A DNA stretch of 64,000 bases from Oscillospiraceae bacterium (lineage in GTDB: Bacteria; Bacillota; Clostridia; Oscillospirales; Acutalibacteraceae), in assembly GCA_015065965.1 (NCBI GenBank), contig SVPH01000005.1:1-64000 (forward strand), in the 5' to 3' direction. Shown piece after piece: positions 2,692 to 54,451 of this stretch. The position numbers and the translations under genes were made by a program. Below the pieces are notes generated by a model. That model had not been told where the DNA came from. It saw only the letters and a list, made by a program, of their open reading frames with translations, and ran no database searches. The first letter of the stretch is position 1; the number at the start of each line of letters is the position of its first letter.

Positions 2692-3447
2692 TTAAAAATC
2701 CTCAATGTTATCCTGAATATAATTGATTACCAAAAAATTCAGATAAGGTTCGTATTCACCTTCAGGAATGTAAATCTCCATATAGGCATCGTTGAATTTA
2801 TCAAACGGCTTGCTTTTTTCAAATTCAATACTTTCCTCAATGCTGCTGGTTTCAACATGTTTGAATTCAATATCGTTTTCTGTCATGAACGTTTCAAGCA
2901 ATGTTGCTTGTTCTTTTGCATCGAGCATTCGGAGATAATCAACGATTTTTTTAATGTATTCATCATCTTCATTGATGAGATACTGAGCCAGACCACCGTT
3001 CTGAATTTCAAAATCAAAGTTGATAACCGCTATAACCGCTTTCTGCTTTTCATTTTTCGGAACACCGATGTTATCTCTTATCGAGTAAAGACCTTCTTCA
3101 AAGTATTCTTCACCGTATTTCTCCTCATATATAGAATAATCGTATGTATCCCATTCAAGTTCACCCGTTTTAGAATAATGAAGCCAAAATGTTCTGTCGT
3201 TTTTATCAAGATGTACCTCAACATGATAAGGTCCTTCAACGGGACTGTCAAAATAATCAATATCAACAATTGTGGGATTCATTTCGGAATAATTATCGGC
3301 AAGATATTGCTCAGCGATATTTCTAACGTTTTTTCTGTCAAGAGGATTGCCGAAAAGTCCGAAAACTACTGCTGTCAAAAATCCGATAACAAATGCCGAT
3401 ATGGTTGCAATTGCTGCAGCAATCAATGCTTTTTCCAACTTTTTCAT
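2692..3447 (-). CDS. Membrane-anchored protein with a C-terminal DMP19/DUF4375-like domain
   Basis: 251 residues with one N-terminal transmembrane segment (about 8-32). Residues 33-115 resemble small extracytoplasmic YfjL-like domains (RNIAEQYLADNYSEMN, WLHYSKTGELEWDTY). The C-terminal half carries NFDEIQNGG-type sequence (FDFEIQNGGLAQYLIN, then LRMLDAKE). That is the hallmark of the DMP19/DUF4375 family, some of whose members mimic DNA. With an export-type anchor in front, a DNA-mimic role is doubtful. AAAGGAGG precedes the ATG. It lies 18 bp after the giant LRR gene and overlaps the lipoprotein's ribosome site. Confidence 0.75.
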   Translation of the reverse strand: MKKLEKALIAAAIATISAFVIGFLTAVVFGLFGNPLDRKNVRNIAEQYLADNYSEMNPTIVDIDYFDSPVEGPYHVEVHLDKNDRTFWLHYSKTGELEWDTYDYSIYEEKYGEEYFEEGLYSIRDNIGVPKNEKQKAVIAVINFDFEIQNGGLAQYLINEDDEYIKKIVDYLRMLDAKEQATLLETFMTENDIEFKHVETSSIEESIEFEKSKPFDKFNDAYMEIYIPEGEYEPYLNFLVINYIQDNIEDF

Positions 3448-3465
3448 AGCAATCCTCCTTTACTT

Positions 3466-6400
3466 TTACATAAATATGCCAACAATAAATGCTCTGATTC
3501 TTGCAATTATTGTATTGAAAAATGAAATAATTCTGTTAAGGAAACTTTGCGATTCACTCATCTTAACAATTTTGAATGATGTTGACATTGAGCCTGAATA
3601 GTTACCTATGCCTGTAATTTTTGCTGTTGCTGTGCCTGAATTTATGTTGTTACTGTAGGTTACAGAGTAATCAACGCCCTCACGCAGAACATTTCCGCCG
3701 TCTGTAATTGTTAATGAGGGAGTAACGGCAGAACCGGTGTAGGATTGGTCAAGAACAGGGAGAACCGATGTTTCAGAAATTTTCTTTGTTACAATTGCAA
3801 AATTCGCTCTGCTTGCAAACATTCTGAAATCGCCCTTGCCCTTAACGGTAACATCGGCATTACCGACGTTAATGTTGTTTGCATAGGTTACACCAAAGTC
3901 AACATTTTTATCAAGAGTATCGCCTGATACGGAAACAGAAACATCGGGTTCAATTTCAAATCCCGTGTAAGTCTGATTGGGGATAGGATCAACAACAAAT
4001 GTGCTGACTCTGATGCCCTGTGTCTGTGCATATGAATGTGCATAGGAGTTTTCCGCACAGTAAATGGTGAGTTTATCGCAGCCGTCAAATGCATCATCGG
4101 CAATCTCGGTTACACTGTCTGCGATAACTGCTGTTTCAAGGTTTGTGCAGTCCGCGAATGCCTGAGATTTAACTGTGGAAACATTACCGCCGATGCCGAG
4201 AGTTTCAAGTTTTTCACATTCTTTGAAACTTTGAACATCAATTGTTTCAAGCGCTGTGTTTTGTTCGTTCTGTGATTCGCCAAGTTGAACAACCGAAACA
4301 CCGCTGCCTGTAAAACTGTTTTTATAAAGTTTTTCTACGTTTACAAAATCAAAGTCGGAAAGTTTCACACAGTTACCGAATGCATATCTGCCGATAAGTT
4401 TGCTTTCGGATTCCCATATGAATTCAGAAAGTGCGGTGCAGTTGTGGAATGCCTGACGGGGGATATAATTAACATTTGGTGACATTCTTACCGATTCAAG
4501 TTTTGTGCATCCTTCAAAAACAGATGTTTCAATGTTTGAAACAGTATCAGGAATATAAATGGTTTTGAGCCAGTCGCAGCCCATGAATGCTCCCATACCT
4601 ATAAGTAAAAGGTTATCTTCAAGTTTGATTTCTTCAAGGTATGTGCAGTTTTTAAATGCATATTCCTCGATGCTTTCAACATTTGAAAGGCTGTCAAAGC
4701 CTGAAATGCTGCTGTTTGCGAACGCTCCTACACCAATATCCGTTACCGATGCAGGCAAAGAGATTTTATCAATATTCTGCAAACCTGCATATAAGAAAGC
4801 AGGGAGTTCTTTAACTGTATTATAAAGATTTATATTCTCAAGTTTTTGTGATGAAATAAAAGGTGATTCGGGAATAATCTCTTCATCAAACTCTGTTGCA
4901 GGGATGATATCACAACTTGCGGCATGTAAATTTACTGTTATGATGTTTTCGCATTGATAAAATGCAAGTTCGCCGATGCTGTTAACGTTTTCCGGGATTG
5001 TTACTTCTTTCAGACCTTCGCAATTAAAAAATGCAAACTGACCAACCAAATCCACGTTTTCGGGGAGAGTAATTTCCTCAATGAGTTTGCAGTCTGCGAA
5101 TGCATAATCGCCGATTGTATTAACTGTAGACGGGAAATCAACGTCTGCAAGATATACACATCCCGCAAAAGCGCGTTCTCCGATTGTTTGGAGACCATAG
5201 GGCAGAATCAACTCGGAAATATCGGTCTGATGAAATGCACGCTCGCCGATTACTTTGAGGTTATTCGGCATATTAACCGTTGTGAGATAGAAGCAGTTTC
5301 CGAATGCATAACTGCCTATATATTCAACGCTGTCGGGAAGTTCAACGGCTTCAACCTTGGATTTAAAAGCAAAATAATCAGGTATTGTTTTTACACCCTC
5401 GCCAAAGATGAGGGTGGGAAGAGTTCCGCCGACTGTAGCAAAAAGAGATCCTGTAATATCAGAATAATTGATAATTTCAGCCTCTATGGCATTATAATAC
5501 AGAGTATTGATATATACCTCTGTTAACGCTTCAATGTTTATTTTTTTTATCGTTGAAGGAATTATAAGTTCGTCAACCATTGCTCCGCTGAAAGCGCAAC
5601 TGCCTATCTCTTCAACACCCTCGGCAATAACAATTTCTTTGATTGTATAATTTTTACAGGCAAAAGCATCTGCTTCAATAACCTCGATATTTGAGGGAAC
5701 ATAAACTTTTTTCAGGGGACATCCGCTGAATGCGCCGTAACCGATTTTTGTCAGAAGCGGCGGAATATCAACCTCGGTAAGGGCACATTTTGAGAATGCA
5801 TGTGAGCCGAGGTGTTCAAGGCTTTTCGGCAGTTGAACTTCGTCAAGGCTGCATCTTTCAAACGCATAATCATCAATGATTTTAAGAGTTTCCGGTAATG
5901 TTACGGTATCGAGGTATGAATTGCAAAATGCATATTCGCAAATTCTTTCAACGCCTTCGGGGAAATCAATTTTGCCGAAAGTTGTTGTATAAAAAGCATA
6001 GGGTGCAATTTCCTTAACTTTGTAAAAGTTATAATCGAAAATGCTGTTGTTATAGAATGCGTATGCGCCGAGTTTTTCAACATTCTCTGCACCGTAGGTG
6101 TAACAGACGCCGCACTGATAGAATGCTCCATAGCCGATTTCAGTTATTGTTTCAGGCATACCCGTATCAGTCAGACACAACAGGTTGCAGCCGCTGAATG
6201 TTTCGCTTTCAATGACTTTGATACCCTCGGGCAGAGTTACAGCACGAAGATTTTCAGAATCCATAAATGCTCCGTAGCCGATTCTTTTAACATATGAAGA
6301 AATATATATTTTGGTGAGATTGCATCCGTAAAAAGCATAGGGTGCAATTTCAACAACGGGCAGATATTTGCCGTTTTCATATATTGTGTTGATATTGATG

Positions 6401-7332
6401 GTGCCGTTGCTTTTGAGGTTATAACTCATCAGGATAACTTCTTGATCAGGTGTAACGATATAGTCAAAAGTTCCGTTTGATACTATATCGTTATCGGTAT
6501 AGTCGTAATATGCGTAGCCTTCTTTAAATATAACAGGTTCCCAGTATCCCGTTTCTTCATTCTTGCGCATATCGTCAAAAACTTCAATAACAGAACTGCT
6601 CTGAGAATGAAGGAAAAAAATTTCTTCGGGATAACGAGCGATGTATCTTGCTTTACCGTCAACAATTATTCTTTTTGAAAATACTGATGAAAATGTTCGG
6701 AATGTGTAGCCCTCAATAGTTACTTTATCAAGTGTTTCGCAGTAAAGTGAACCCTGACCGAGATTGTTAACGCATTCAGGAATGACAAGTTCTTTTATGT
6801 TTGTTTTATCAAAAGTCTGGTTGTATATATATCTGAGATTCTTTTGCGGCAAATCAATTTCACTCAGCGCTGTGCCGTAAAATGCCCTTCCGTAAATGGT
6901 GTAAAGATTTTCAGGCAACTTTATACTCGTGAGTTTTGAACAGTTTTCAAAGGCACTTACGCCGATATATCTGATTGAATCAGGTAAAACTACACTCTCA
7001 ATATTTTTGAGGTTTTCGTTCTTCCATCTTATGTTAACTGTACTGCTGTCAGCGCTGTCGGTAAATGCTTCCGTATCAATCTCATAAACGGTAAGCCCTT
7101 CAATTTCTTCGGGTACAACAACGTTAACATCGCTGCCGATATATTTTGCAATTACGGCTCTGTTATTTTCAATTGTGTAAACATAGTCACCGCTGACAAG
7201 ATATTCAGGCGTTTTTGCCGCCTCGGCATTAAGAGTAAACAACTCGGTTAAATCAGCACCGAAAACGGGGATTGCCGCAACAACCGCAGCCGCTAAAATG
7301 ATACAAAGTGTTTTTTTGAGGAAAATTTTCAT
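3466..7332 (-). CDS. Giant secreted BspA-like leucine-rich-repeat protein
   Basis: 1288 residues. A Sec signal peptide (about 1-26) is followed by dozens of LRR_5/BspA-type repeats, recognisable by recurring I-G-x-x-A-F-x-x-C and L-P-x-x-[VL]-x-x-I-G signatures. From about residue 1120 there are two MBG/YDG-like modules sharing YTG...P...V-x-Y-x-N-N-I-x-x-G and K-G-x-G-x-[FY]. The protein ends in an aromatic amphipathic tail (SFFNTIIARIRAFIVGIF). BspA-like proteins bind host or matrix ligands, so an adhesin role is likely but inferred. AAAGGAGG lies eight bases before the ATG. It follows a second LRR gene by 16 bp. Confidence 0.92.
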   Translation of the reverse strand: MKIFLKKTLCIILAAAVVAAIPVFGADLTELFTLNAEAAKTPEYLVSGDYVYTIENNRAVIAKYIGSDVNVVVPEEIEGLTVYEIDTEAFTDSADSSTVNIRWKNENLKNIESVVLPDSIRYIGVSAFENCSKLTSIKLPENLYTIYGRAFYGTALSEIDLPQKNLRYIYNQTFDKTNIKELVIPECVNNLGQGSLYCETLDKVTIEGYTFRTFSSVFSKRIIVDGKARYIARYPEEIFFLHSQSSSVIEVFDDMRKNEETGYWEPVIFKEGYAYYDYTDNDIVSNGTFDYIVTPDQEVILMSYNLKSNGTININTIYENGKYLPVVEIAPYAFYGCNLTKIYISSYVKRIGYGAFMDSENLRAVTLPEGIKVIESETFSGCNLLCLTDTGMPETITEIGYGAFYQCGVCYTYGAENVEKLGAYAFYNNSIFDYNFYKVKEIAPYAFYTTTFGKIDFPEGVERICEYAFCNSYLDTVTLPETLKIIDDYAFERCSLDEVQLPKSLEHLGSHAFSKCALTEVDIPPLLTKIGYGAFSGCPLKKVYVPSNIEVIEADAFACKNYTIKEIVIAEGVEEIGSCAFSGAMVDELIIPSTIKKINIEALTEVYINTLYYNAIEAEIINYSDITGSLFATVGGTLPTLIFGEGVKTIPDYFAFKSKVEAVELPDSVEYIGSYAFGNCFYLTTVNMPNNLKVIGERAFHQTDISELILPYGLQTIGERAFAGCVYLADVDFPSTVNTIGDYAFADCKLIEEITLPENVDLVGQFAFFNCEGLKEVTIPENVNSIGELAFYQCENIITVNLHAASCDIIPATEFDEEIIPESPFISSQKLENINLYNTVKELPAFLYAGLQNIDKISLPASVTDIGVGAFANSSISGFDSLSNVESIEEYAFKNCTYLEEIKLEDNLLLIGMGAFMGCDWLKTIYIPDTVSNIETSVFEGCTKLESVRMSPNVNYIPRQAFHNCTALSEFIWESESKLIGRYAFGNCVKLSDFDFVNVEKLYKNSFTGSGVSVVQLGESQNEQNTALETIDVQSFKECEKLETLGIGGNVSTVKSQAFADCTNLETAVIADSVTEIADDAFDGCDKLTIYCAENSYAHSYAQTQGIRVSTFVVDPIPNQTYTGFEIEPDVSVSVSGDTLDKNVDFGVTYANNINVGNADVTVKGKGDFRMFASRANFAIVTKKISETSVLPVLDQSYTGSAVTPSLTITDGGNVLREGVDYSVTYSNNINSGTATAKITGIGNYSGSMSTSFKIVKMSESQSFLNRIISFFNTIIARIRAFIVGIFM

Positions 7333-7348
7333 TATCCCATCCTCCTTT

Positions 7349-10150
7349 TTATCTACGGAAAATAGTGAACTGGTCGAAAAATTCTCTTATCCTCATAATA
7401 AAGGATTCAAAGAAATTACTGAAATAATCGTTTGCAGCCTGCTTTGAGTAAAGCGGATCTTCATCTTTGCTATTATCCGGTGCAGGAGCAGTATTCGGCA
7501 CTTTAACCGGAATGCCATGCTCCATGGCGTACAGGTAAGCATATGAATTTTCACTGCAGACAATCGTAAGATTATTACAGCATTCAAAGGCATAATCGGA
7601 TATTTCCGTTACGCTGTCAGGAATGTTTGCTGTTATAAGAGATGTGCAGTAGTTGAACGCATCGAATTTTATTTCGGTTACGCCATCGGGAATACAGATT
7701 GTTTTGAGTGAAGAACAGTTGTAGAATAAGTACGGTTCAATGGTTTTTAGATTCTTAGGTAATTTAACATATCTGAGCCCTGTACAGCCCATGAATGCAC
7801 CGTAATCAATTTCTGTTATACTGTCTGAGAAAACAATTTCTTCAAGCGATTCACAGTTAAGCGAGAAGAAAGCGGGAACAAATGTAACTTTTTCACCAAA
7901 AACTATTTTCTTAAGTGTATCGGTTGAGAATTTAGCGTGTTTATTGGTTGAAGTTGCTCTTTCAATGTTTATATCAAACTCAACAGCGTTATAATAAACG
8001 ACTTCTGCTTCTGTTTCGGCAATAATTCCGTAACCAAGTTTTTTAACGCTTTCAGGGATTGTTATTTCTTTTATACGGCTGCCGAAAAATGCTTCGTTTC
8101 CAATAGATTCAACGCCGTTTTCAATTGTTATTTCAACAACATTATCGCAGCATGTAAACGCATCGTCACAGATTGTTTTAACGGTTGACGGAATATGAAT
8201 TTTTACAATTGAAAGAAGATATGCAAATGTGCTGTTGTTGATTGTTTCAAGTTTCGGCGGAATATTAATGCTTGTTATTGCTTCGCATGCTTCAAATGCC
8301 GATTCACCGATATATGTAACTGTATCGGGGAATTCAATGCCGTCAAGCGATAAACATTCATAAAACGCAACTTTGCCGATTTTTTCAAGATTATCGGGTA
8401 AATCAATTGATTGAAGCGGAGTGAATGCGAAAGCACCCTTAGGAATTTCTTTGAGATTATCAGGCAGTTCAACCTGTTCAAGCGCCGAATGGGCAAAAGC
8501 ATCTTTGCCGATATGTTTTATGCTTTCAGGAATTATTATTTTTTTGAATGATTCGTTATATATAAATGCTCTGTCGCCGATATATTCAAGACTTTCGGGC
8601 AATTTTTCGGTATTTATTGTTGCGTGCGGTCCTATATTTCCGACCAATACCGAGGTTGTGAATGCAAAATCGCCGATTTCTTTCAACTTATCTCCGAAGT
8701 TATCAACCACAAGCGAGCCGCATGCGATGAATGCGCCGCTTGAAATTATTTCAACATTCTCAAAAATTCCGAAATCGTTGAAACTTCTACAATCCCAGAA
8801 TGCATCGGCAGGCACATAGTTGACTTTTGAGGGCCAATTAATACTTTTTAGATTGGTGCAGCCGAGAAATGCTTTAACACCGATTTCTGTTACGGATTCG
8901 GGAAGAGCGAGTTCTTCAAGCGCGGTACAGCCAAAGAATGCGCCGTTGCCGATTTCTTCAATTCCTTCGGAAATTGATATTATGCTGACATTTGAGTTTT
9001 TGAAAGCGTAATTGCCGATTCGTTTGATTGTGCCGGGAATAATAACTTCCTGCGCCAATGTGTCTGTAAAGGCTTCAGCGCCGATTTCTGCAACAACGCC
9101 GTAATTTACATTTACATATCCTACATTATCGGGAACAACAATATAAGGATTGTTACCTATGTACTTTGTAAGAACCGCTTCTCCGTTTTCATTGAGAATA
9201 TATTCAAACGCACGGTCAGTATAAACTTCTGAGGAATATCCGCCCGAATATTCGCAGTGCCAGAATCCGCTGTTATCATCATAACTGATATTATAATCTT
9301 CGCAGTAAGGCATATGACTCGGCATATGGCGGAAATACACGTTTTTAAGCGCAGGGCTGTTTGTTTTTAACAAAAACTGATAATTATCATCTATTGCAGG
9401 GTAGAAATTCTCGGTAAGAACATCGGAGAATATAACGGTTTCAACGCTTTTGTAAAATGCATGCTTATCAATGCTTGTTATAGTTGAGGGGAGCGTAATG
9501 CTTGTTACTTTTGTATCCTGCAAAAAATATGCAGGTATTATCGTCATACCTTCGTTCAGATTCATTTTTTCAATACTGCTATTGCTGAAAGCATCGTATG
9601 AAATAGTTATATCTTTGCCGGGAAGGGTAAGTTCTTTAAGGCTTGTGCATTCGAAAAACAAACAATTACCCAAATTTTTAATGCTGTAAGGAATATTGAT
9701 TGAAGAAAGATTAGGGCAGTTTGCAAAAGCGGAATCACCTATAACCTGAACACCTTCACTTAAAGTAACCGTTTTTAAGTTGTCCATATATTCAAATGCA
9801 TCACTGCAGATTGTAACCACGGTTGAAGGAACTGTAATACTTTCAATTTTAATGATGTTTTCTATATATTTTGAAGGCCAACAGCCGCTGAAGCATTCTG
9901 CGCCTATTGATGTAACAGGCATGCCGTTGATTTCAGATGGAATAATTACATTTATATCATCGCCGAGATATTCTTTAAGTTTTACCTCACTTCCGTTTAT
10001 AGCGGTGCAATTATAATCGCCCCATGTAAAATCCGATTCGGCAGCCGATGCTGTTGATGAAAATATATTGCTGAAATCAAGCCCTGTTAAGGGTGATACT
10101 GAAATGATTAAAGTAAATATAAGTAAAAAAGATAAAATCTTTCGTTTCAT
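7349..10150 (-). CDS. Large secreted BspA-like leucine-rich-repeat protein
   Basis: 933 residues with an N-terminal signal peptide (about 1-38, ending near STASAAES). Nearly all of the rest is LRR_5/BspA repeats (I-G-x-x-A-F-x-x-C, L-P-x-x-V-x-x-I). The same fold occurs in the downstream 1288-residue protein, but this one lacks the MBG-like modules and has a short linker (APAPDNSKDEDP) before an aromatic tail, FFESFIMRIREFFDQF. GGAGG precedes the ATG. It is probably a paralogue produced by duplication and transcribed with the sigma/anti-sigma pair. Cell-surface binding is inferred from the family. Confidence 0.92.
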   Translation of the reverse strand: MKRKILSFLLIFTLIISVSPLTGLDFSNIFSSTASAAESDFTWGDYNCTAINGSEVKLKEYLGDDINVIIPSEINGMPVTSIGAECFSGCWPSKYIENIIKIESITVPSTVVTICSDAFEYMDNLKTVTLSEGVQVIGDSAFANCPNLSSINIPYSIKNLGNCLFFECTSLKELTLPGKDITISYDAFSNSSIEKMNLNEGMTIIPAYFLQDTKVTSITLPSTITSIDKHAFYKSVETVIFSDVLTENFYPAIDDNYQFLLKTNSPALKNVYFRHMPSHMPYCEDYNISYDDNSGFWHCEYSGGYSSEVYTDRAFEYILNENGEAVLTKYIGNNPYIVVPDNVGYVNVNYGVVAEIGAEAFTDTLAQEVIIPGTIKRIGNYAFKNSNVSIISISEGIEEIGNGAFFGCTALEELALPESVTEIGVKAFLGCTNLKSINWPSKVNYVPADAFWDCRSFNDFGIFENVEIISSGAFIACGSLVVDNFGDKLKEIGDFAFTTSVLVGNIGPHATINTEKLPESLEYIGDRAFIYNESFKKIIIPESIKHIGKDAFAHSALEQVELPDNLKEIPKGAFAFTPLQSIDLPDNLEKIGKVAFYECLSLDGIEFPDTVTYIGESAFEACEAITSINIPPKLETINNSTFAYLLSIVKIHIPSTVKTICDDAFTCCDNVVEITIENGVESIGNEAFFGSRIKEITIPESVKKLGYGIIAETEAEVVYYNAVEFDINIERATSTNKHAKFSTDTLKKIVFGEKVTFVPAFFSLNCESLEEIVFSDSITEIDYGAFMGCTGLRYVKLPKNLKTIEPYLFYNCSSLKTICIPDGVTEIKFDAFNYCTSLITANIPDSVTEISDYAFECCNNLTIVCSENSYAYLYAMEHGIPVKVPNTAPAPDNSKDEDPLYSKQAANDYFSNFFESFIMRIREFFDQFTIFRR

Positions 10151-10194
10151 TTAAATATACCTCCGAATATAAGTTTTCCGTAATATCCCGTTTA

Positions 10195-49165: not shown

Positions 49166-49795
49166 ATGAGCAAGTCAAAATATAATTATAAGGTTTATAA
49201 CGGAAAAGCGTTGAAAAAGATATTTGAAAATTCAAGAATATATCTTTTTGCGGTTATTTTTGCAATAGGAATTGTTGCGGGTGCAATTGTAATCGGTGGC
49301 GATTCGGAGTTGATTTTAAAAATAAAAAATTTAACTGATTCGTTTGTTCAAATGAAATCACAACAGGGAATTGCAGAGAATTTTTGCAACTCCGTTTCCG
49401 TAAGCGTATTATTTATGATAATAAATGTATTTTTTGGATTTTCGCTTGTCGGATATCCTTTTTTAATCTGGCTGCCTTTTCTCAGAGGAATGGGAATAGG
49501 CGTTGTCACCGGTTATTTTTACTCTGTGTTTAAGGCGCTGGGATTGGGATATTGTGTTTTAATAATATATCCAGGAGCAATTGTATCAACATTAGCATTT
49601 ATTCTGGCTTGTAACGATAGTTGCGAATATTCAAAAAATGCATTTCAAAAAGCAATAAAGGGCAGGGGACAGTTTGAAAAAGATGAAACCAAAGTATACT
49701 TTATACGACAGATAATTTTTATGGGTATATGCGCAGCATCTTCTGTTATTGATGCAATTTTCTCGGCATCATTTTCGAGATTTTTTGAGATTTGA
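49166..49795 (+). CDS. SpoIIM-like (DUF95) membrane protein
   Basis: 209 residues with about five transmembrane helices. Resembles stage II sporulation protein M, part of the engulfment cell-wall machinery: FAIGIVAGAI helix, FGFSLVGYPFLIWLPFLRGMGIG and YPGAIVSTLAFILA segments. TAGGAGG precedes the ATG. A XerD-like gene next door recalls the spoIIM-ripX/xerD neighbourhood of Bacillus, although here the genes converge. Its last 27 bp overlap the recombinase gene on the other strand. Confidence 0.85.
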   Translation: MSKSKYNYKVYNGKALKKIFENSRIYLFAVIFAIGIVAGAIVIGGDSELILKIKNLTDSFVQMKSQQGIAENFCNSVSVSVLFMIINVFFGFSLVGYPFLIWLPFLRGMGIGVVTGYFYSVFKALGLGYCVLIIYPGAIVSTLAFILACNDSCEYSKNAFQKAIKGRGQFEKDETKVYFIRQIIFMGICAASSVIDAIFSASFSRFFEI

Positions 49796-50755
49796 TGGGT
49801 TATTAAGAGGATTTGAATCAACGGCTTGCTTAAGTTGTTCATCGCGAATGTGAGTGTATATTTCTGTTGTTGAAAGATTTTCATGGCCGAGAATTTCTTT
49901 AAGTTGAAGAGGATCAACATTACCGTGTTGATACATGAGTGTTGCAGCGGTATGTCTGAGTTTATGTGTTGAAAGCCCCATACCGTCAAAACCGCATTTT
50001 TTTAGATTAGCCTCAACCATTTTCTGAACACTTTGTTTACTGATTCTTTTCTTTTGATTACTTATAAATAATGCATCGCGGTCAATTACTCCGTCAACAG
50101 GTCTTACTGCCATATATGCTGAAATTGCGTTAATACAAGCGTTGTTAAGATAAATTGTTCGTTCTTTGTTGCCTTTACCAAGCACAACAAGTGTATTATC
50201 GTCTTTTAAATGCGAAATATTGATTCCAACAAGTTCTGACAGACGCAAACCGCAGTTTAGAAAAAGAGTTAGAATGCAATAGTCACGTTCTTTAAATTTT
50301 CCGTCAACATTTTGTAAAAGCGTAACGCTCTGTTCAAGTGTAAGATACTTAGGCAGACTCTTTTTGGTCTGAGGGGATTCAAGGAAAGCAATTCGATTAA
50401 CGCTTATATAACCGTTTACTTCAAGATATCTGAAAAAGCGTTTTATTGCAACCGCTTTGCGCGCTCTTGCATTATTGTCATTTTTTCTTTCATTCCTGCA
50501 GTAAACAAGGAAAGCATAGGCCTCATCAAGCGTTACACTGCAAACAATATCATTTGAAAGCATTGCAATATTAATTTCATCAAACGGTACATTATTATCA
50601 CAGATACCGCGTGATTTTGCTATAAATCTGTAAAACAGTCTTAAGTCTGAGCCGTATTCAAGAACTGTAAGCATAGATTTGCTTTTGATTGCGGAAAGGT
50701 AGTTAAGATATGTTCTGACCAGTGCAGGTAAAGTGATAAGTTCTTCCTGTCTCAT
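49769..50755 (-). CDS. XerC/XerD-like tyrosine recombinase
   Basis: 328 residues. An N-terminal SAM-like core-binding domain is followed by a catalytic domain with Arg171 (GLRLSEL), Lys194, His264/Arg267 (HKLRHTAAT), His291 (LGHENL) and Tyr300 (TTEIYTH): the full set. Length and neighbours (spoIIM-like gene) fit a chromosomal XerD-type enzyme rather than a phage integrase. However, a mobile element with core-like sites begins 76 bp upstream, so a link to that element cannot be excluded. Confidence 0.9.
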   Translation of the reverse strand: MRQEELITLPALVRTYLNYLSAIKSKSMLTVLEYGSDLRLFYRFIAKSRGICDNNVPFDEINIAMLSNDIVCSVTLDEAYAFLVYCRNERKNDNNARARKAVAIKRFFRYLEVNGYISVNRIAFLESPQTKKSLPKYLTLEQSVTLLQNVDGKFKERDYCILTLFLNCGLRLSELVGINISHLKDDNTLVVLGKGNKERTIYLNNACINAISAYMAVRPVDGVIDRDALFISNQKKRISKQSVQKMVEANLKKCGFDGMGLSTHKLRHTAATLMYQHGNVDPLQLKEILGHENLSTTEIYTHIRDEQLKQAVDSNPLNNPSNLKKSRK

Positions 50756-50780: not shown

Positions 50781-50809
50781 GGTATGTTATAAATTAATTA
50801 TAACATACC
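50781..50809. repeat. Perfect 12 bp inverted repeat upstream of the xerD-like gene
   Basis: GGTATGTTATAA and TTATAACATACC are separated by five bases (ATTAA). The 29 bp size and A/T centre resemble a recombinase or dimeric-repressor site. It sits between the xerD-like start codon (50755) and the left boundary of the integrated element. Confidence 0.7.
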
Positions 50810-50830
50810 TAAATGAAAAAATCAATACAA

Positions 50831-50861
50831 TTATACAAAATAACAAAGTTTTGTATAGTTT
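50831..50861. repeat. Left boundary site (attL-like)
   Basis: TATACAAAA and TTTTGTATA arms form an inverted repeat around an 8 bp centre (TAACAAAG). This is the arm-spacer-arm form of tyrosine recombinase core sites. It matches the right site except for two missing bases in the centre. Confidence 0.7.
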
Positions 50862-50890
50862 GCGTTCAGGCTTGCGCCGGACTGATATGA

Positions 50891-51015
50891 AGTTGCCATC
50901 TGTTATCAGTGAGCCAACTGAAAAGTAGATGTTAAGTTGCTATCTGTTATCAGTGAGCCAACTGAAAAGTAGATGTTAAGTTGCTATCTGTTATCAGTCA
51001 GCCAACTGTGACGCA
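50891..51015. repeat. 44 bp tandem repeats, 2.8 copies (iteron-like)
   Basis: Units start at 50891, 50935 and 50979. The first two are identical except one base; the third matches for about 30 bp and then diverges. Each unit carries AGTTG...CCAACT inverted arms and the ATCTGTTATCAGT core. An ACTGATA complement precedes the first. Placement just before the rep gene suggests a replication origin or Rep binding site. Confidence 0.85.
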
Positions 51016-51026
51016 AAAAAAGTAGT

Positions 51027-51284
51027 ATGGATAGTGTAATTGATGTTGCAATGGAATTGCAGAGGGTTCTGAACAATGCCCGCATTATCAGCGATTATGA
51101 CCGCAGTGTGTATGTTGAAAGATATGGTGAGGATAGAGTTTCTTTTATTGAATATCAATCAGAGATTCTTGCAGAGCCTGGCCACAATATTCAGGCTTGC
51201 CTTAACATTGCTTATGACAAAGGATTTGTTGATTGCATTGAAATGATTGGTCGCTGTCTGTCACGAATTGAGGTGACGGAATGA
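51027..51284 (+). CDS. Small hypothetical protein upstream of rep
   Basis: 85 residues, acidic, mostly helical, no recognised family. It begins 11 bp after the tandem repeats and overlaps the rep gene by four bases (ATGA), so the two are translated together. The ribosome site is weak (AAAGTAG). In rolling-circle plasmids this position is often held by copy-control proteins, but nothing in the sequence proves that here. Confidence 0.6.
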   Translation: MDSVIDVAMELQRVLNNARIISDYDRSVYVERYGEDRVSFIEYQSEILAEPGHNIQACLNIAYDKGFVDCIEMIGRCLSRIEVTE

Positions 51285-52306
51285 GCGTAGCACCTTTACT
51301 TGATAATATAGAAACAACGTGCGCGCCTTCAAAACGTTCAAAATCGTTGACAGATAAGGCTTTCAGAGAAAATTTTGACGAAAAATTGTATACTCTGTTA
51401 GAATTGGATTTTGAGAAATACAAGAAGTTATCTATAGAAGTTTCTGAAGCATTAAGGTTTTTCAGCAACAATGATAAACTAAAAGAAAAAGGTAAGGTTA
51501 TGCAGTCTTGTGGTTTTGAACTTGGTTTCATAGAAGATAGACTTGTAGACGCTAACTTCTGCAGAATCAGACTTTGTCCTATGTGTCAGAGGAGAAAGTC
51601 ATTGAGAACTTACAGTGATTTTGTAAAGATGCTTGATTTACTTACAGACTATGCTTTTTTGCATCTAACTCTTACTGTGCCGAACTGTTCTTTTGATGAA
51701 CTCTCTGACACCATAACATTTCTTAACAAATGTTCATCAAAGTTTTTTTCATTGCCTATATTTAAAAAAGCCTTTCATGGTGTTGTCAGAACTCTTGAGG
51801 TTTCATATAATAGTGTCACTAATAAAATGCACCCTCATTTTCATATTCTTATTGCAGTCAGACCCTCGTACTTTAAATCAAGAGTGTACATTAAATCGGA
51901 CAGAATACAACAGATATGGTCGCTGTTATGGAAACATAGAGAAGAAAATTTAAGAGGAAAAAAATGGACACTTGAACACTTGGACACACTTCCTCTTGCT
52001 GATGATGAACTCCTGCAGACACATATAACAAAAGCAGATAATGGCGCTTTGCCTGAAATAGCAAAATATGCAGTTAAGCCCATTGACTTTGAGTGCTCCT
52101 TGAAAGAACGTGCAAAAGTTCTTGATTGCTTATACAGCGCTCTTAATGGGAAAAGAATGGTGTTTCTTTCGGGTGTGTTCAAAGATGTTGCAAAGAAGTT
52201 GAAGATTGACCTTGAAGCATCCGAGCCTTTACCTGCAATTGACAAAAACAAGATAGTTTACTATTATTGGAATTATAGACAAGCACACTATGAAAGCGAG
52301 GGCTGA
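51281..52306 (+). CDS. Rolling-circle replication initiator (Rep_1-type HUH)
   Basis: 341 residues. A zinc-like Cys cluster (C94, C99, C102 in CRIRLCPMCQRRKS) is followed by Rep motif 1 (FLHLTLTVPN, 126-135), the metal-binding HUH motif 2 (HPHFHIL, 184-190) and motif 3 with the nicking Tyr263 in KYAVK. This order and spacing match the pUB110/pC194-type Rep family. GAGGTGACGG precedes the ATG. It would nick the origin and start rolling-circle replication. All key residues are intact, so it may be active. Confidence 0.92.
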   Translation: MSVAPLLDNIETTCAPSKRSKSLTDKAFRENFDEKLYTLLELDFEKYKKLSIEVSEALRFFSNNDKLKEKGKVMQSCGFELGFIEDRLVDANFCRIRLCPMCQRRKSLRTYSDFVKMLDLLTDYAFLHLTLTVPNCSFDELSDTITFLNKCSSKFFSLPIFKKAFHGVVRTLEVSYNSVTNKMHPHFHILIAVRPSYFKSRVYIKSDRIQQIWSLLWKHREENLRGKKWTLEHLDTLPLADDELLQTHITKADNGALPEIAKYAVKPIDFECSLKERAKVLDCLYSALNGKRMVFLSGVFKDVAKKLKIDLEASEPLPAIDKNKIVYYYWNYRQAHYESEG

Positions 52307-52336
52307 TTTAACTTTTTCCAGAAAGTAAACTGATAA

Positions 52337-52837
52337 ATGAAAACAGATTTTATTGACAATGACATTATGGCGCATGTGCTTTATGCACTTACCTATGAGA
52401 ATAGAATTGCATGCAAGGTTTGCCTTGAAACGGGCTTGCGTATTGGTGATGTTTTGGCTTTTAAAACTGCTGATCTTAAAAAGAAAACATTCACTATAAC
52501 GGAACAAAAAACAAAAAAGAAGCGTGTTATCAGACTTACTAAAAAATTAAAGGATGAATTAAACGCTATAGCAGGCTCATATTATGTTTTTGAGGGTCGA
52601 ACAGACCCTCAAAAACATAGAACACGTCAAGCAGTCTACAGCGATATTAAAAGGGCTTGTAGGGCTTTTAGGATAAAAGAAAATTTCAGTGTACATTCTT
52701 TGCGTAAGGCTTATGCTGTGGATTTATACAAAAAAACAGGGGACTTAAAAAAAGTTCGTGATGCCCTCAACCATGACAATGAATTAACAACACTGTTATA
52801 TGCTTTGGCTGATGAATTGAGCAAAAAAAAAGGATAG
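52337..52837 (+). CDS. Minimal tyrosine recombinase (catalytic domain only)
   Basis: 166 residues. The complete catalytic set is visible: Arg35 (ETGLRIGDVL), Lys58-60 region, His120/Arg123 (HSLRKAYA), His146 (NHDNELTT) and Tyr155. The N-terminal core-binding domain of normal integrases is absent: the protein begins almost directly at the catalytic fold. It lies 30 bp after rep on the same strand. It probably integrates or resolves the element, perhaps with help of a host Xer protein (inference). No strong ribosome site. Confidence 0.88.
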   Translation: MKTDFIDNDIMAHVLYALTYENRIACKVCLETGLRIGDVLAFKTADLKKKTFTITEQKTKKKRVIRLTKKLKDELNAIAGSYYVFEGRTDPQKHRTRQAVYSDIKRACRAFRIKENFSVHSLRKAYAVDLYKKTGDLKKVRDALNHDNELTTLLYALADELSKKKG

Positions 52838-52865
52838 GTGCGAAAGCACCTATCCTTTTATTTTA
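52828..52865. terminator. Bidirectional terminator inside the element
   Basis: AAAAGGATAGGTGC / GCACCTATCCTTTT with a GAAA tetraloop, between convergent genes and followed by TTTTATTTT on the plus strand and A-rich sequence on the other side. Confidence 0.93.
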
Positions 52866-53208
52866 AATGCCTTATAGACCATAATTTACTTGAAAATTCT
52901 ATTGTTTCATAAATCCTTGATGCTTCTTTTGAAGCCTCAATTATGGCTTGCTGAACTCTTGCGCTGATTAATTTTTCTGCTGACTTCTGGAGCCTTGCTC
53001 TGAACTCTTCTACACTTATTTCTTTATAGGCTACTATTAAACCTTCTTGCGCATTAAATGCACATTCAAAAATTTCAGATGTATCAGGATCATACATCGG
53101 AAAAAACTCACCTGCAGGACTCCAACTGCTTGTGGCAACTTCATTGAACTTTTCAAGATTTCTGAAACCATCATAAACCTCTGGAATTTGACAATATACT
53201 CTTAACAT
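52858..53208 (-). CDS. Hypothetical element-encoded protein
   Basis: 116 residues. The N-terminal half contains MLRVYCQIPEVYDGF and a SPAGEFFPMYDPDTSEIFEC stretch; the C-terminal half is one long Ala/Glu-rich helix (EEFRARLQKSAEKLIS). No family is recognised. AAAGGATG lies before the ATG and is part of a 12 bp arm of a large inverted repeat, so its translation or transcription may be influenced by that structure. It is the only minus-strand gene of the element. Confidence 0.7.
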   Translation of the reverse strand: MLRVYCQIPEVYDGFRNLEKFNEVATSSWSPAGEFFPMYDPDTSEIFECAFNAQEGLIVAYKEISVEEFRARLQKSAEKLISARVQQAIIEASKEASRIYETIEFSSKLWSIRHLK

Positions 53209-53213
53209 TTTTT

Positions 53214-53347
53214 AGCATCCTTTCGTTTTCTTTTCTCTTATCCTTGCTTGCTTTTTAATGGAGTTGTCAAGGTTGAGGGCTTGCCCTCACCCTGGCTTGA
53301 CCTTGACAACGGGGCAGGGGAAACAATGGGAAATGCGAAAGGATGCT
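53214..53347. repeat. Nested palindrome (candidate replication or transfer origin)
   Basis: Three nested inverted repeats share one axis: outer AGCATCCTTTCG (53214-53225) with CGAAAGGATGCT (53336-53347); middle GTTGTCAAGGT (53263-53273) with ACCTTGACAAC (53300-53310); inner TGAGGGC/GCCCTCA (53274-53280, 53283-53289). No coding sequence lies inside. Single-stranded DNA of this region would fold into a long hairpin, as single-strand origins do. Confidence 0.75.
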
Positions 53348-53443
53348 TTGTTCGTCACAAAATCGAAAGAATGTTCTGATTGACAACTTTTTATCTGTGG
53401 TGTATATTGTTGTAGGGTTGTTTCTTACTGCTTTTGTTTGCCA

Positions 53444-53600
53444 GCGCTATTCTAAGCGCAAACAAGGACTAAAGGCGCTTAGGGTGCGCGGACGGCGACG
53501 CAGTAGCGAGCACCGAGAAAATTGGAAAGGAAGGTTGATGGGCGACACACTTTGGCAGGCGCATTGGCTGAACGGAAATTATACCACAACTTTTATTTTG
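53444..53600. other. GC-rich hairpin region of the element
   Basis: Visibly richer in G+C than the rest of the window. CTAAGCGC (53452-53459) pairs with GCGCTTAG (53475-53482); a competing stem GCGCT/AGCGC spans 53444-53459. GTGC..GCAC follows to about 53513. No convincing gene is present. It may be a single-strand origin or an oriT that borrows a relaxase from elsewhere; no relaxase gene is present in the element. Confidence 0.45.
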
Positions 53601-53616
53601 TAAGACGGTAGGCGAT

Positions 53617-53650
53617 TAATAGCCTTTTTTATTTTTTATAAAGGCTATTA
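53617..53650. repeat. Inverted repeat abutting the right boundary
   Basis: TAATAGCCTTT and AAAGGCTATTA are separated by 12 A/T bases. It touches the right core-like site. It could be a terminator or an arm-type recombinase site. Confidence 0.6.
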
Positions 53651-53676
53651 TACAAAATAAATGTTTTGTATAGTTT
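53648..53676. repeat. Right boundary site (attR-like)
   Basis: TTATACAAAATAA-ATG-TTTTGTATAGTTT has the same two arms as the left site, with a central region shorter by two bases (TAAATG). Confidence 0.7.
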
Positions 53677-53701: not shown

Positions 53702-54451
53702 CTAATATGTTTCTTCTTTAAGCGGAAGAATTCCACCAATATCATAAAGCGGGTTTCTATGCAGTTCAACACATTCAACATTATGTTTACTCAGAAAGTC
53801 TAATATATTGTTATGGTCTGTATGGCTTTCAATTGCTCCGTTAAATGCAATTTTGTTTTTATCAATTTTACCGCAACAACCTCCGATAAATCCATAATTG
53901 TATCCATCTAATTTAATGGAGCCTTTTGAAATGAACAGAACATCGTTCAGAAATTTTCCAGCGGCTGTAAAGATGGATTTATCATCAGTTATTATTGCAT
54001 TTTCATTAACAACACAGATTGAACATTTTGCATAACCTTGATTAACATTAATAACTGTAAAACCGTTTGAATCGGCATATTCAAGAATTTCACGTGCAAC
54101 GGTTTTTGTGTTACATATTAATTTGTTACCTATCAATGCACAATTGAGTTTTACATCATCAGGATATTTGTTACCTACTGTTGCTGAAATTTTTTTAAAA
54201 TTTAAATTTTCAGCAAACTCTCCTACGCACAAATGTTCGCACTGGTAAAAAATGTCATTTCTTCCAATGTGAAGTATTTGTAAATCCGCATGTGAATTAA
54301 CAGGTTCAGGCAGGCATAAATCTTGTTTTATAAGGATAGTTTCAATGCCGAAAGAGTTTAGTTTTTTTATTGACTCCCCTGCTTTGATGCTTATTGCAAC
54401 AATAGTTACCCTGCCCTGAGGTAAGTTTGGTTTTTCTGTAAATTTAATCAT
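53702..54451 (-). CDS. Uncharacterised protein, possible GME-fold (DUF6873-like)
   Basis: 249 residues, soluble. The opening MIKFTEKPNLPQGRVTIVAIS and repeated beta-alpha pieces (NAIITDDKSIFTAAGKFLNDVL, GFIGGCCGKI) recall the DUF6873 proteins, thought to have the guanidino-group-modifying enzyme (GME) fold. A Cys pair (GCCG) and C-terminal LHRNPLYDIGG are seen, but no certain catalytic set. It follows radA by eight bases on the same strand. Function unknown; family call is moderate. Confidence 0.7.
   Translation of the reverse strand: MIKFTEKPNLPQGRVTIVAISIKAGESIKKLNSFGIETILIKQDLCLPEPVNSHADLQILHIGRNDIFYQCEHLCVGEFAENLNFKKISATVGNKYPDDVKLNCALIGNKLICNTKTVAREILEYADSNGFTVINVNQGYAKCSICVVNENAIITDDKSIFTAAGKFLNDVLFISKGSIKLDGYNYGFIGGCCGKIDKNKIAFNGAIESHTDHNNILDFLSKHNVECVELHRNPLYDIGGILPLKEETY

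Follow-up and report, generated by a model that had tools for sequence, protein, structure and literature searches.

A rolling-circle plasmid inserted at a probable dif site beside the xer gene of an Oscillospiraceae bacterium

Introduction

How does a DNA segment of under 3 kb, carrying a rolling-circle replication initiator and a tyrosine recombinase reduced to its catalytic domain, come to lie in a bacterial chromosome? Such a segment is found in the 64,000-nucleotide stretch analyzed here (the window), positions 1 to 64,000 of contig SVPH01000005.1 (assembly GCA_015065965.1) from an Oscillospiraceae bacterium, next to the host gene for a Xer recombinase. An earlier note, made from the letters of the window, had proposed a discrete integrated element at 50831-53676. 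Our comparisons with related genomes and plasmids suggest that the segment is a rolling-circle plasmid that probably entered the probable dif site beside the host's single xer gene as a folded plus-strand hairpin, through the host Xer with or without the element's own small recombinase (hereafter the mini-recombinase). The target and the fold are well supported, and what the mini-recombinase does is the point of the model of which we are least certain.

Results

The element interrupts a site that is empty in relatives

The element, its attachment sites and the flanking host genes are as follows.

50841-53657, plus strand: integrated element of 2817 bp, delimited by comparison with 22 empty sites and with the joined flanks
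50830-50859, plus strand: attL, consisting of the chromosomal left arm ATTATACAAAA, an enlarged 8-bp centre TAACAAAG and the element right arm TTTTGTATAGT
53647-53674, plus strand: attR, consisting of the element left arm, the native 6-bp centre TAAATG and the chromosomal right arm, in which the native site is regenerated
49769-50755, minus strand: host xer gene, encoding the probably single Xer recombinase (328 amino acids), adjoining the target site
53702-54451, minus strand: host DUF6873 gene, on the opposite flank of the target site

Orthologues of the host xer gene with 57-82% identity were found in 22 loci (L014-L035; L036 and L037, with truncated xer, were left out of the count). DUF6873 lies upstream of xer in all 22 readable loci of the genus, and the intervening gap of 75-386 bp contains no insert. 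Each gap holds one site, in which a 6-bp centre is enclosed by two 11-bp arms with 7 to 11 of their 11 bases paired. In 10 of the 22 the centre is exactly CATTTA, the reverse complement of the TAAATG in the right-hand site of the window. When the flanks of the window are joined in silico, the product is almost identical to the sequence of L014. A search of relatives for the locus without the segment, which the earlier note had advised, thus returned an empty site in every readable case (22/22). The insertion and its two breakpoints stand as that note described them; its outer limits fall inside the flanking sites, and the insert itself spans 50841-53657. These coordinates assume a crossover where the left arm meets the centre and are ambiguous within the shared arm and TAA.

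The two flanking sites had been described as matching. The pattern TTATACAAAA-N4..12-TTTTGTATA does have exactly two occurrences in the window, against 0 in 100 shuffles, and the whole 2.33-Mb assembly (estimated 86% complete) likewise holds exactly two, but the sites are not identical, with a centre of 8 bp on the left and 6 bp on the right. The neighbouring gene called xerD-like in the earlier note belongs, together with the flanking site, to a conserved module of the host itself, which that note missed. Some match to the host xer was present in 39 of 45 genus genomes, weak matches to other integrases included, and the Rep of the window was found in 1 of 60 genomes searched, namely its own.

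The target is probably dif

The product of the window xer matched the XerC, XerD and XerS models, each below its cut-off (XerC, 196 bits against a cut-off of 335; XerS, 135 bits against 267, giving no assignment to XerS). Scanning with the XerD model showed 14 of 16 genus genomes to have one conserved Xer each, scoring 177-198 bits; all remaining matches were at or below 129 bits, and the host is likely to use a single-Xer system. GC skew in the window, about +0.15 at first, turns slightly negative at the element. A genome of the order that is assembled in one contig has xer at position 1.545 Mb of 3.009 Mb, and its skew passes from +0.05 (1.50 Mb) to -0.073 (1.56 Mb); in another relative (G021) it changes at xer from +0.047 to -0.097. 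A palindrome was also visible by eye within 350 bp upstream of xer in two of five further genomes of the order (L179 and L181). Since an empty palindrome is linked to xer and the GC skew switches there, this target probably serves a single-Xer system as its dif. A survey predicted dif in 97 of 100 Firmicutes, and its main text does not name Ruminococcus or Faecalibacterium (PMC3025954).

The region around xer has other features. A 12-5-12 palindrome, GGTATGTTATAA-ATTAA-TTATAACATACC, lies just upstream of the gene at 50781-50809 and is a possible xer operator; a less regular, similar stretch is found upstream of xer in L014 and L016. At four loci a second tyrosine recombinase gene (about 303 amino acids) lies convergent with and directly beside xer (L061, 7882-8790; L079, 8074-8985; L089, 3367-4275; G044:C1:1546419-1547138), and its product could be a second Xer in those hosts.

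The two ends carry scars of fixed polarity

We compared the two ends across 17 bracketed elements, that is, 16 loci and the window in which paired sites enclose the recombinase gene. In all 17, the enlarged centre (7-10 bp) is at the left end and the native 6-bp centre at the right end, downstream of Rep and the recombinase; this holds for either orientation of the element with respect to xer. The recombinase gene defined the direction of each element except L089, where that gene is inverted relative to rep and rep was used instead. The two centres of one element agree at their start (mean of 3.4 shared bases, with at least one in 17/17) and almost never at their end (mean 0.06). Among eight held-out loci, which had played no part in forming this rule, four had both sites and all four obeyed it. 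In one of these four (L250, position 11122), an extra enlarged site with an 8-bp centre lies beyond the native site, perhaps from a second element or a remnant.

Of 33 loci, 18 had a partner site on the recombinase side and none had one on the opposite side, and scrambled arms gave partners in 16 of 660 trials. Two partners that do not bracket the recombinase gene (L049 and L078) were excluded from the bracketed set. Possible left sites seen by eye only in L073, L051 and L082 (centres of 6, 7 and 7 bp) were not counted, nor was L092, which has tandem genes and no clear native site.

The polarity is consistent with an exchange of only the top, Rep-coding strand at the border between left arm and centre, or with an equivalent directional reaction of double-stranded DNA. 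The scar polarity of all 21 paired elements agrees with integration of plus-strand single-stranded DNA through one strand exchange, and an exchange of double-stranded DNA fits it too. With a native site restored at one end, the host can still resolve dimers; the other end is enlarged and probably a poor site, so that the plasmid would stay.

An accessory site pairs with the enlarged site in a predicted forked hairpin

In the circular form of the element, a second dif-like site lies near the enlarged one. The corresponding features of the window are these.

53579-53606, plus strand: accessory inverted dif-like site TTATACCACAA-CTTTTA-TTTTGTAAGAC, with 12 of 14 inner bases; register set by hand
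53568-53574, plus strand: outer stem half CTGAACG, with its partner CGTTCAG at 50863-50869 in the folded circular plus strand

With a strict filter, an accessory site was found in 14 of 17 elements, 11 times on the recombinase side at 53-122 bp and three times on the other side within 20 bp; shuffling the right-hand segment yielded one in at most 2.5% of cases for any element. The site of the window passes only the looser filter. At a looser score of at least 12, the site is present in 19 of 20 elements and circular plasmids (all but L089) against 0 of 22 empty sites, and it is present in 4 of 4 held-out elements.

The accessory site is inverted, and its reverse-complemented centre tends to share both its start and its end with the centre of the main site. 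Prefix agreement was 34 against a permuted mean of 23.1 (11 of 50,000 permutations as high), and suffix agreement was 25 against 13.1 (3 of 50,000). The 6-bp register of the window's accessory centre was chosen by hand; the counts without the window were 24 (prefix) and 3 (suffix) of 50,000. The ten bases outside the arms pair at 80 of 160 positions against a mean of 45.2, a value reached in 0 of 50,000 permutations. Two near copies (L054 of L053 and L079 of L069), together with L089 and L095, were excluded from the fold and covariation tests.

When the plus strand was folded as DNA, the main left arm was predicted to pair with the accessory right arm, and vice versa, in 16 of 16 elements and in 4 of 4 held-out ones. 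The predicted fold of the window has an energy of -27.3 kcal/mol (z = -8.26), and 0 of 200 shuffles were as low. We also scanned de novo 14 circular or small contigs that carry the recombinase gene, the host being unknown to the scan, and a dif-like forked pair emerged in six (L005, L007, L008, L009, L063 and L075). None of five Rep plasmids without known recombinase had a forked pair (0/5).

The element encodes an intact Rep and a minimal recombinase

The remaining features of the element are listed from left to right.

50884-51015, plus strand: three direct repeats, 44 bp each, at the left end of the element; the attachment site is on one side of them and the first open reading frame on the other
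51027-51284, plus strand: open reading frame of 85 amino acids without family match
51281-52306, plus strand: rep, encoding a Rep_1-family HUH replication initiator of 341 amino acids
51298-51304, plus strand: CTTGATA motif within the 5' part of rep, on the strand of rep; likely nick site of the double-strand origin
52337-52837, plus strand: catalytic-domain-only tyrosine recombinase of 166 amino acids, with 11 residues after the catalytic Tyr
52858-53208, minus strand: open reading frame of 116 amino acids without credible family match
53343-53603, plus strand: open reading frame of 86 amino acids without credible family match

The Rep and the recombinase that the earlier note had called complete were both borne out. 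Rep matches Pfam Rep_1 (E = 1.1e-45; 156.5 bits, cut-off 33.2 bits) and carries HPHFH at residue 184 and EIAKYAVK at residue 259; H184, H186, H188, E259, Y263 and K266 are invariant across five aligned Reps. The recombinase gene starts 30 bp 3' of rep. Its product matches Pfam Phage_integrase over residues 9-157 (E = 1.8e-21), the Pfam search reported no N-terminal SAM-like domain, and it aligns solely with the C-terminal catalytic part of its relatives. The catalytic residues R35, K61, H120, R123, H146 and Y155 are all present and are invariant in 56 of 56 aligned members.

Iteron-like repeats and long palindromes, also described in the earlier note, are likewise present as the three 44-bp direct repeats and several long inverted repeats. 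The integration model leaves the direct repeats (50884-51015) unexplained. A perfect 16-bp inverted repeat with a 5-nt loop lies within the mini-recombinase coding sequence (52583-52619), and a terminator-like 19-nt hairpin lies at the end of that gene (52823-52864).

We rejected three other classes of element. Among the five open reading frames, no relaxase or conjugation gene was matched, which speaks against a conjugative or mobilizable element; matches to IS91-like transposons were weak only; and no structural gene of a phage or phage satellite was matched in the element. The mini-recombinase matched 117 phage records, the ten listed having 32-33% identity and coming mostly from Streptococcus satellites.

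The element belongs to a family that includes free circular plasmids

The same recombinase is encoded on seven circular rat-cecum plasmids of 2.2-3.8 kb (40-56% identity). Two of these (HG796380 and HG796394) are also among the 20 best Rep matches, with Rep preceding the recombinase as in the window. A search of plasmid databases with the two proteins, another proposal of the earlier note, thus found them together on free circular plasmids. Circularity was confirmed by PCR for 38 of 40 tested rat-cecum elements, a figure for the study as a whole, and the words "Xer" and "recombinase" are absent from the main text of that report (PMC3913684).

A pattern scan of 84,980 species genomes for the recombinase identified 54 loci, mostly in genomes named Oscillospiraceae, Clostridia, Flavonifractor, Gemmiger and similar (L071, L072, L075 and L090 bear names of other groups). 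In 31 of the 54, the recombinase gene has a close homologue of the chromosomal xer no more than about 3.5 kb away. Exact terminal overlaps, as expected of circular molecules, were present in 5 of 12 small contigs tested. The family occurs in 17 of 395 sampled genomes of the order and in 4 of 391 sampled genomes of the class, all four from the same order. Scanning viral contigs left 80 recombinase loci, one of them close (L097, 47%) and the other 79 at 29-36% identity.

Rep is interchangeable within the family, with at least three kinds of HUH Rep. Among 20 further proteins scanned, 14 matched a Rep family (nine REP_ORF2-G2P, three Rep_1 and two Rep_OBD); L076 had no Rep-family match. Of the 11 Rep_1 elements searched, window included, 10 carry CTTGATA, the likely double-strand-origin nick site, on the strand that encodes Rep.

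Arm similarity correlated with recombinase similarity at r = 0.38. Arms may be identical even where the adjoining recombinases are down to 38% identity, which argues against the mini-recombinase alone setting arm specificity. Some hosts among L056, L066, L073, L076 and L080 have arms that deviate from ACAAAA (CGCTAAA, GGCATAA), and the element arms follow those of the host wherever both ends were found. In L048, two copies of a related element stand in exact tandem (3306-10167, period 3417 bp); the first and second sites have enlarged centres, the last site the native one.

Discussion

The insertion at an empty site, the linkage of the target to xer, the polarity of the spacers and the predicted fold with its covariation are all seen in the sequence. 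From them we infer the dif function of the target, a single-stranded substrate, exchange of a single strand and the recombinase that cuts. In the course of events that we propose, Rep would produce plus-strand circles of single-stranded DNA, in which the two inverted dif-like sites at the plasmid junction, one enlarged and one with a centre of 6-7 bp, would pair into a forked hairpin that mimics dif. Host Xer, perhaps together with the mini-recombinase, would swap one strand between the hairpin and dif where left arm and centre meet, and chromosome replication would finish the insertion. A circle could be regained by replication out of tandem copies, of which L048 is an exact tandem of two, or through excision by the mini-recombinase. 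If CTTGATA is the nick site, the displaced circle is the plus strand, the same strand on which the scars place the exchange. Use of the host Xer, which the earlier note had raised, is likely because the target palindrome adjoins the host xer. In CTXphi, catalytic XerC requires XerD as a partner; such a second protein is missing from a host with one Xer, and the mini-recombinase may take its place. A broader version, that plasmids swapping at least three HUH Rep kinds insert single-stranded DNA by a hairpin at the dif of single-Xer Gram-positive gut bacteria, with the mini-recombinase as the missing XerC-like partner of the host Xer, so that host and plasmid would each supply one subunit to a reaction of two recombinases, is possible but doubtful as a whole.

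The scars could also have arisen if a double-stranded plasmid integrated at dif through the host Xer by one strand exchange, with only half of its centre matching dif, as in VGJphi; the accessory site and the hairpin would then serve another purpose, for example as a single-strand origin or in multimer resolution. The bases shared at the start of the centres would alone suffice for such a scar, some elements have no clear accessory site (L089, L095 and eight of the 14 contigs scanned de novo), and rolling-circle plasmids require a hairpin single-strand origin. This route nevertheless appears unlikely to us: the hairpin is built from the dif arms themselves, its centre pairs at both ends and covaries, centres of 7-10 bp against 6 bp would probably be awkward in a double-stranded synapse, and the layout matches attP1 and attP2 of CTXphi. 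Rather less probable still is that the mini-recombinase alone integrates and excises the plasmid, the host dif being merely its target and Xer unneeded. Its catalytic set is complete in all 56 members and it is present in every element described, though the elements were found through it; yet it has no N-terminal core-binding domain, and the element arms are the host's own site in each genus even though recombinases at identical arms fall to 38% identity. We regard it as very improbable that the element is a relic of a single chance entry at a palindromic hot spot, with paired sites that are functionless repeats. This copy may be immobile and the recombinase genes of L061 and L089 are truncated, but the rep and recombinase frames of the window are open, the site is empty in 22 of 22 readable relatives, and elements with other Rep families and other host arms show the same target, scar polarity and hairpin.

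Several observations weigh against integration of a folded single strand at dif. A VGJphi-type reaction of double-stranded DNA with one strand exchange would give identical scars. The minus strand should fold much alike, so the fold gives no choice of strand, and since dif arms are palindromic, their pairing is partly automatic and only the centres and outer flanks are independent. All 20 folded cases were selected for having an accessory site; L089 has none, the site of L095 was set aside as doubtful despite scoring 12/14, equal to that of the window, and centre pairing is weak in the held-out L246 and L248. The de novo scan gave no dif-like forked pair in 8 of 14 contigs (four with other pairs, four with none). 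Partner sites were missing in 15 of 33 loci, several because the contig ends there, and paired sites in four of the eight held-out loci; two of the 18 partners (L049 and L078) have 6-bp centres and do not bracket the recombinase gene. As to dif, no clear GC-skew switch is found at xer in G015, leaving a switch in two of three sampled relatives, and inspection by eye showed no palindrome in L177, L178 and L180 within 350 bp upstream of xer. The XerD cut-off was passed in none of 16 genus genomes, but also in only 4 of 14 control genomes, so that failing it is weak evidence for a single-Xer system. Excision, a circular form and a single-stranded form of the present copy are, finally, proposals made from assembled sequence.

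Folded single-stranded integration at dif has been described for filamentous phages of Vibrio (PMC4246890, PMC5357621). Among the open-access papers listed by our searches, none appeared to describe rolling-circle plasmids that integrate at dif in Clostridia, a plasmid-borne folded attP, or the dif of this order. Finding this architecture on minimal plasmids of a Gram-positive order, and with three Rep kinds, suggests that rolling-circle replicons may have a general way of converting their single-stranded intermediate into stable inheritance while the host retains a functional dif. A single-Xer/dif module is indicated for the order as well. A two-gene system is small enough to be rebuilt in the laboratory, where the role of a catalytic-domain-only recombinase becomes directly testable.

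Comparison with known systems

The element shares its Rep family, CTTGATA on the Rep strand and a size of 2-4 kb with Rep_1 rolling-circle plasmids of the pC194/pUB110 type, but differs from them in being integrated and in having a recombinase and dif-like attachment sites. The rat-cecum plasmids pRGI00836 and pRGI00891 have a related Rep and a forked att site in common with it; all seven such plasmids are known, from the published account, as circular records only (PMC3913684), whereas the element of the window is integrated.

Single-Xer systems offer a second comparison. XerS/difSL and XerH/difH, as outlined in PMC5357621, use one Xer, as the host here probably does, and the XerS site lies directly beside its gene, as here; their arms differ from the present site, and the difSL centre has 11 bp. 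In Legionella, LME-1 with XerL/dif carries a dif mimic in a single-recombinase host and leaves one intact and one modified site, as does our element. According to the available text (PMC9765430), its modified site has three arm substitutions instead of an enlarged centre, the host is unrelated and a folded site is not described.

The closest parallels are the integrative mobile elements exploiting Xer (IMEX), here as portrayed in the cited portions of PMC4246890 and PMC5357621. VGJphi and TLCphi resemble the element in having a dif mimic whose centre is heterologous on one side; theirs is a single mimic, and those accounts do not describe for them the second site and folded structure seen here. 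In CTXphi, attP1 with a 12-bp centre and attP2 with a centre of 5-7 bp are inverted, lie 90 bp apart and fold on the plus strand, and catalytic XerC requires XerD as a partner (PMC4246890, PMC5357621). Like CTXphi-type IMEX, the element is a rolling-circle replicon at a (probable) dif with two inverted dif-like sites, one centre being enlarged; homology to dif on one side of the centre and tandem copies, as in L048, are common to CTXphi and the element family. The element differs from CTXphi in being plasmid-sized, with no recognized phage structural gene and with its own catalytic-domain-only recombinase, in its Gram-positive host with probably one Xer, in centres of 7-10 bp, and in that integration as single-stranded DNA is here deduced from sequence (PMC4246890, PMC5357621). 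Overall, the integration route is most likely CTXphi-like, on minimal plasmids of Gram-positive bacteria.

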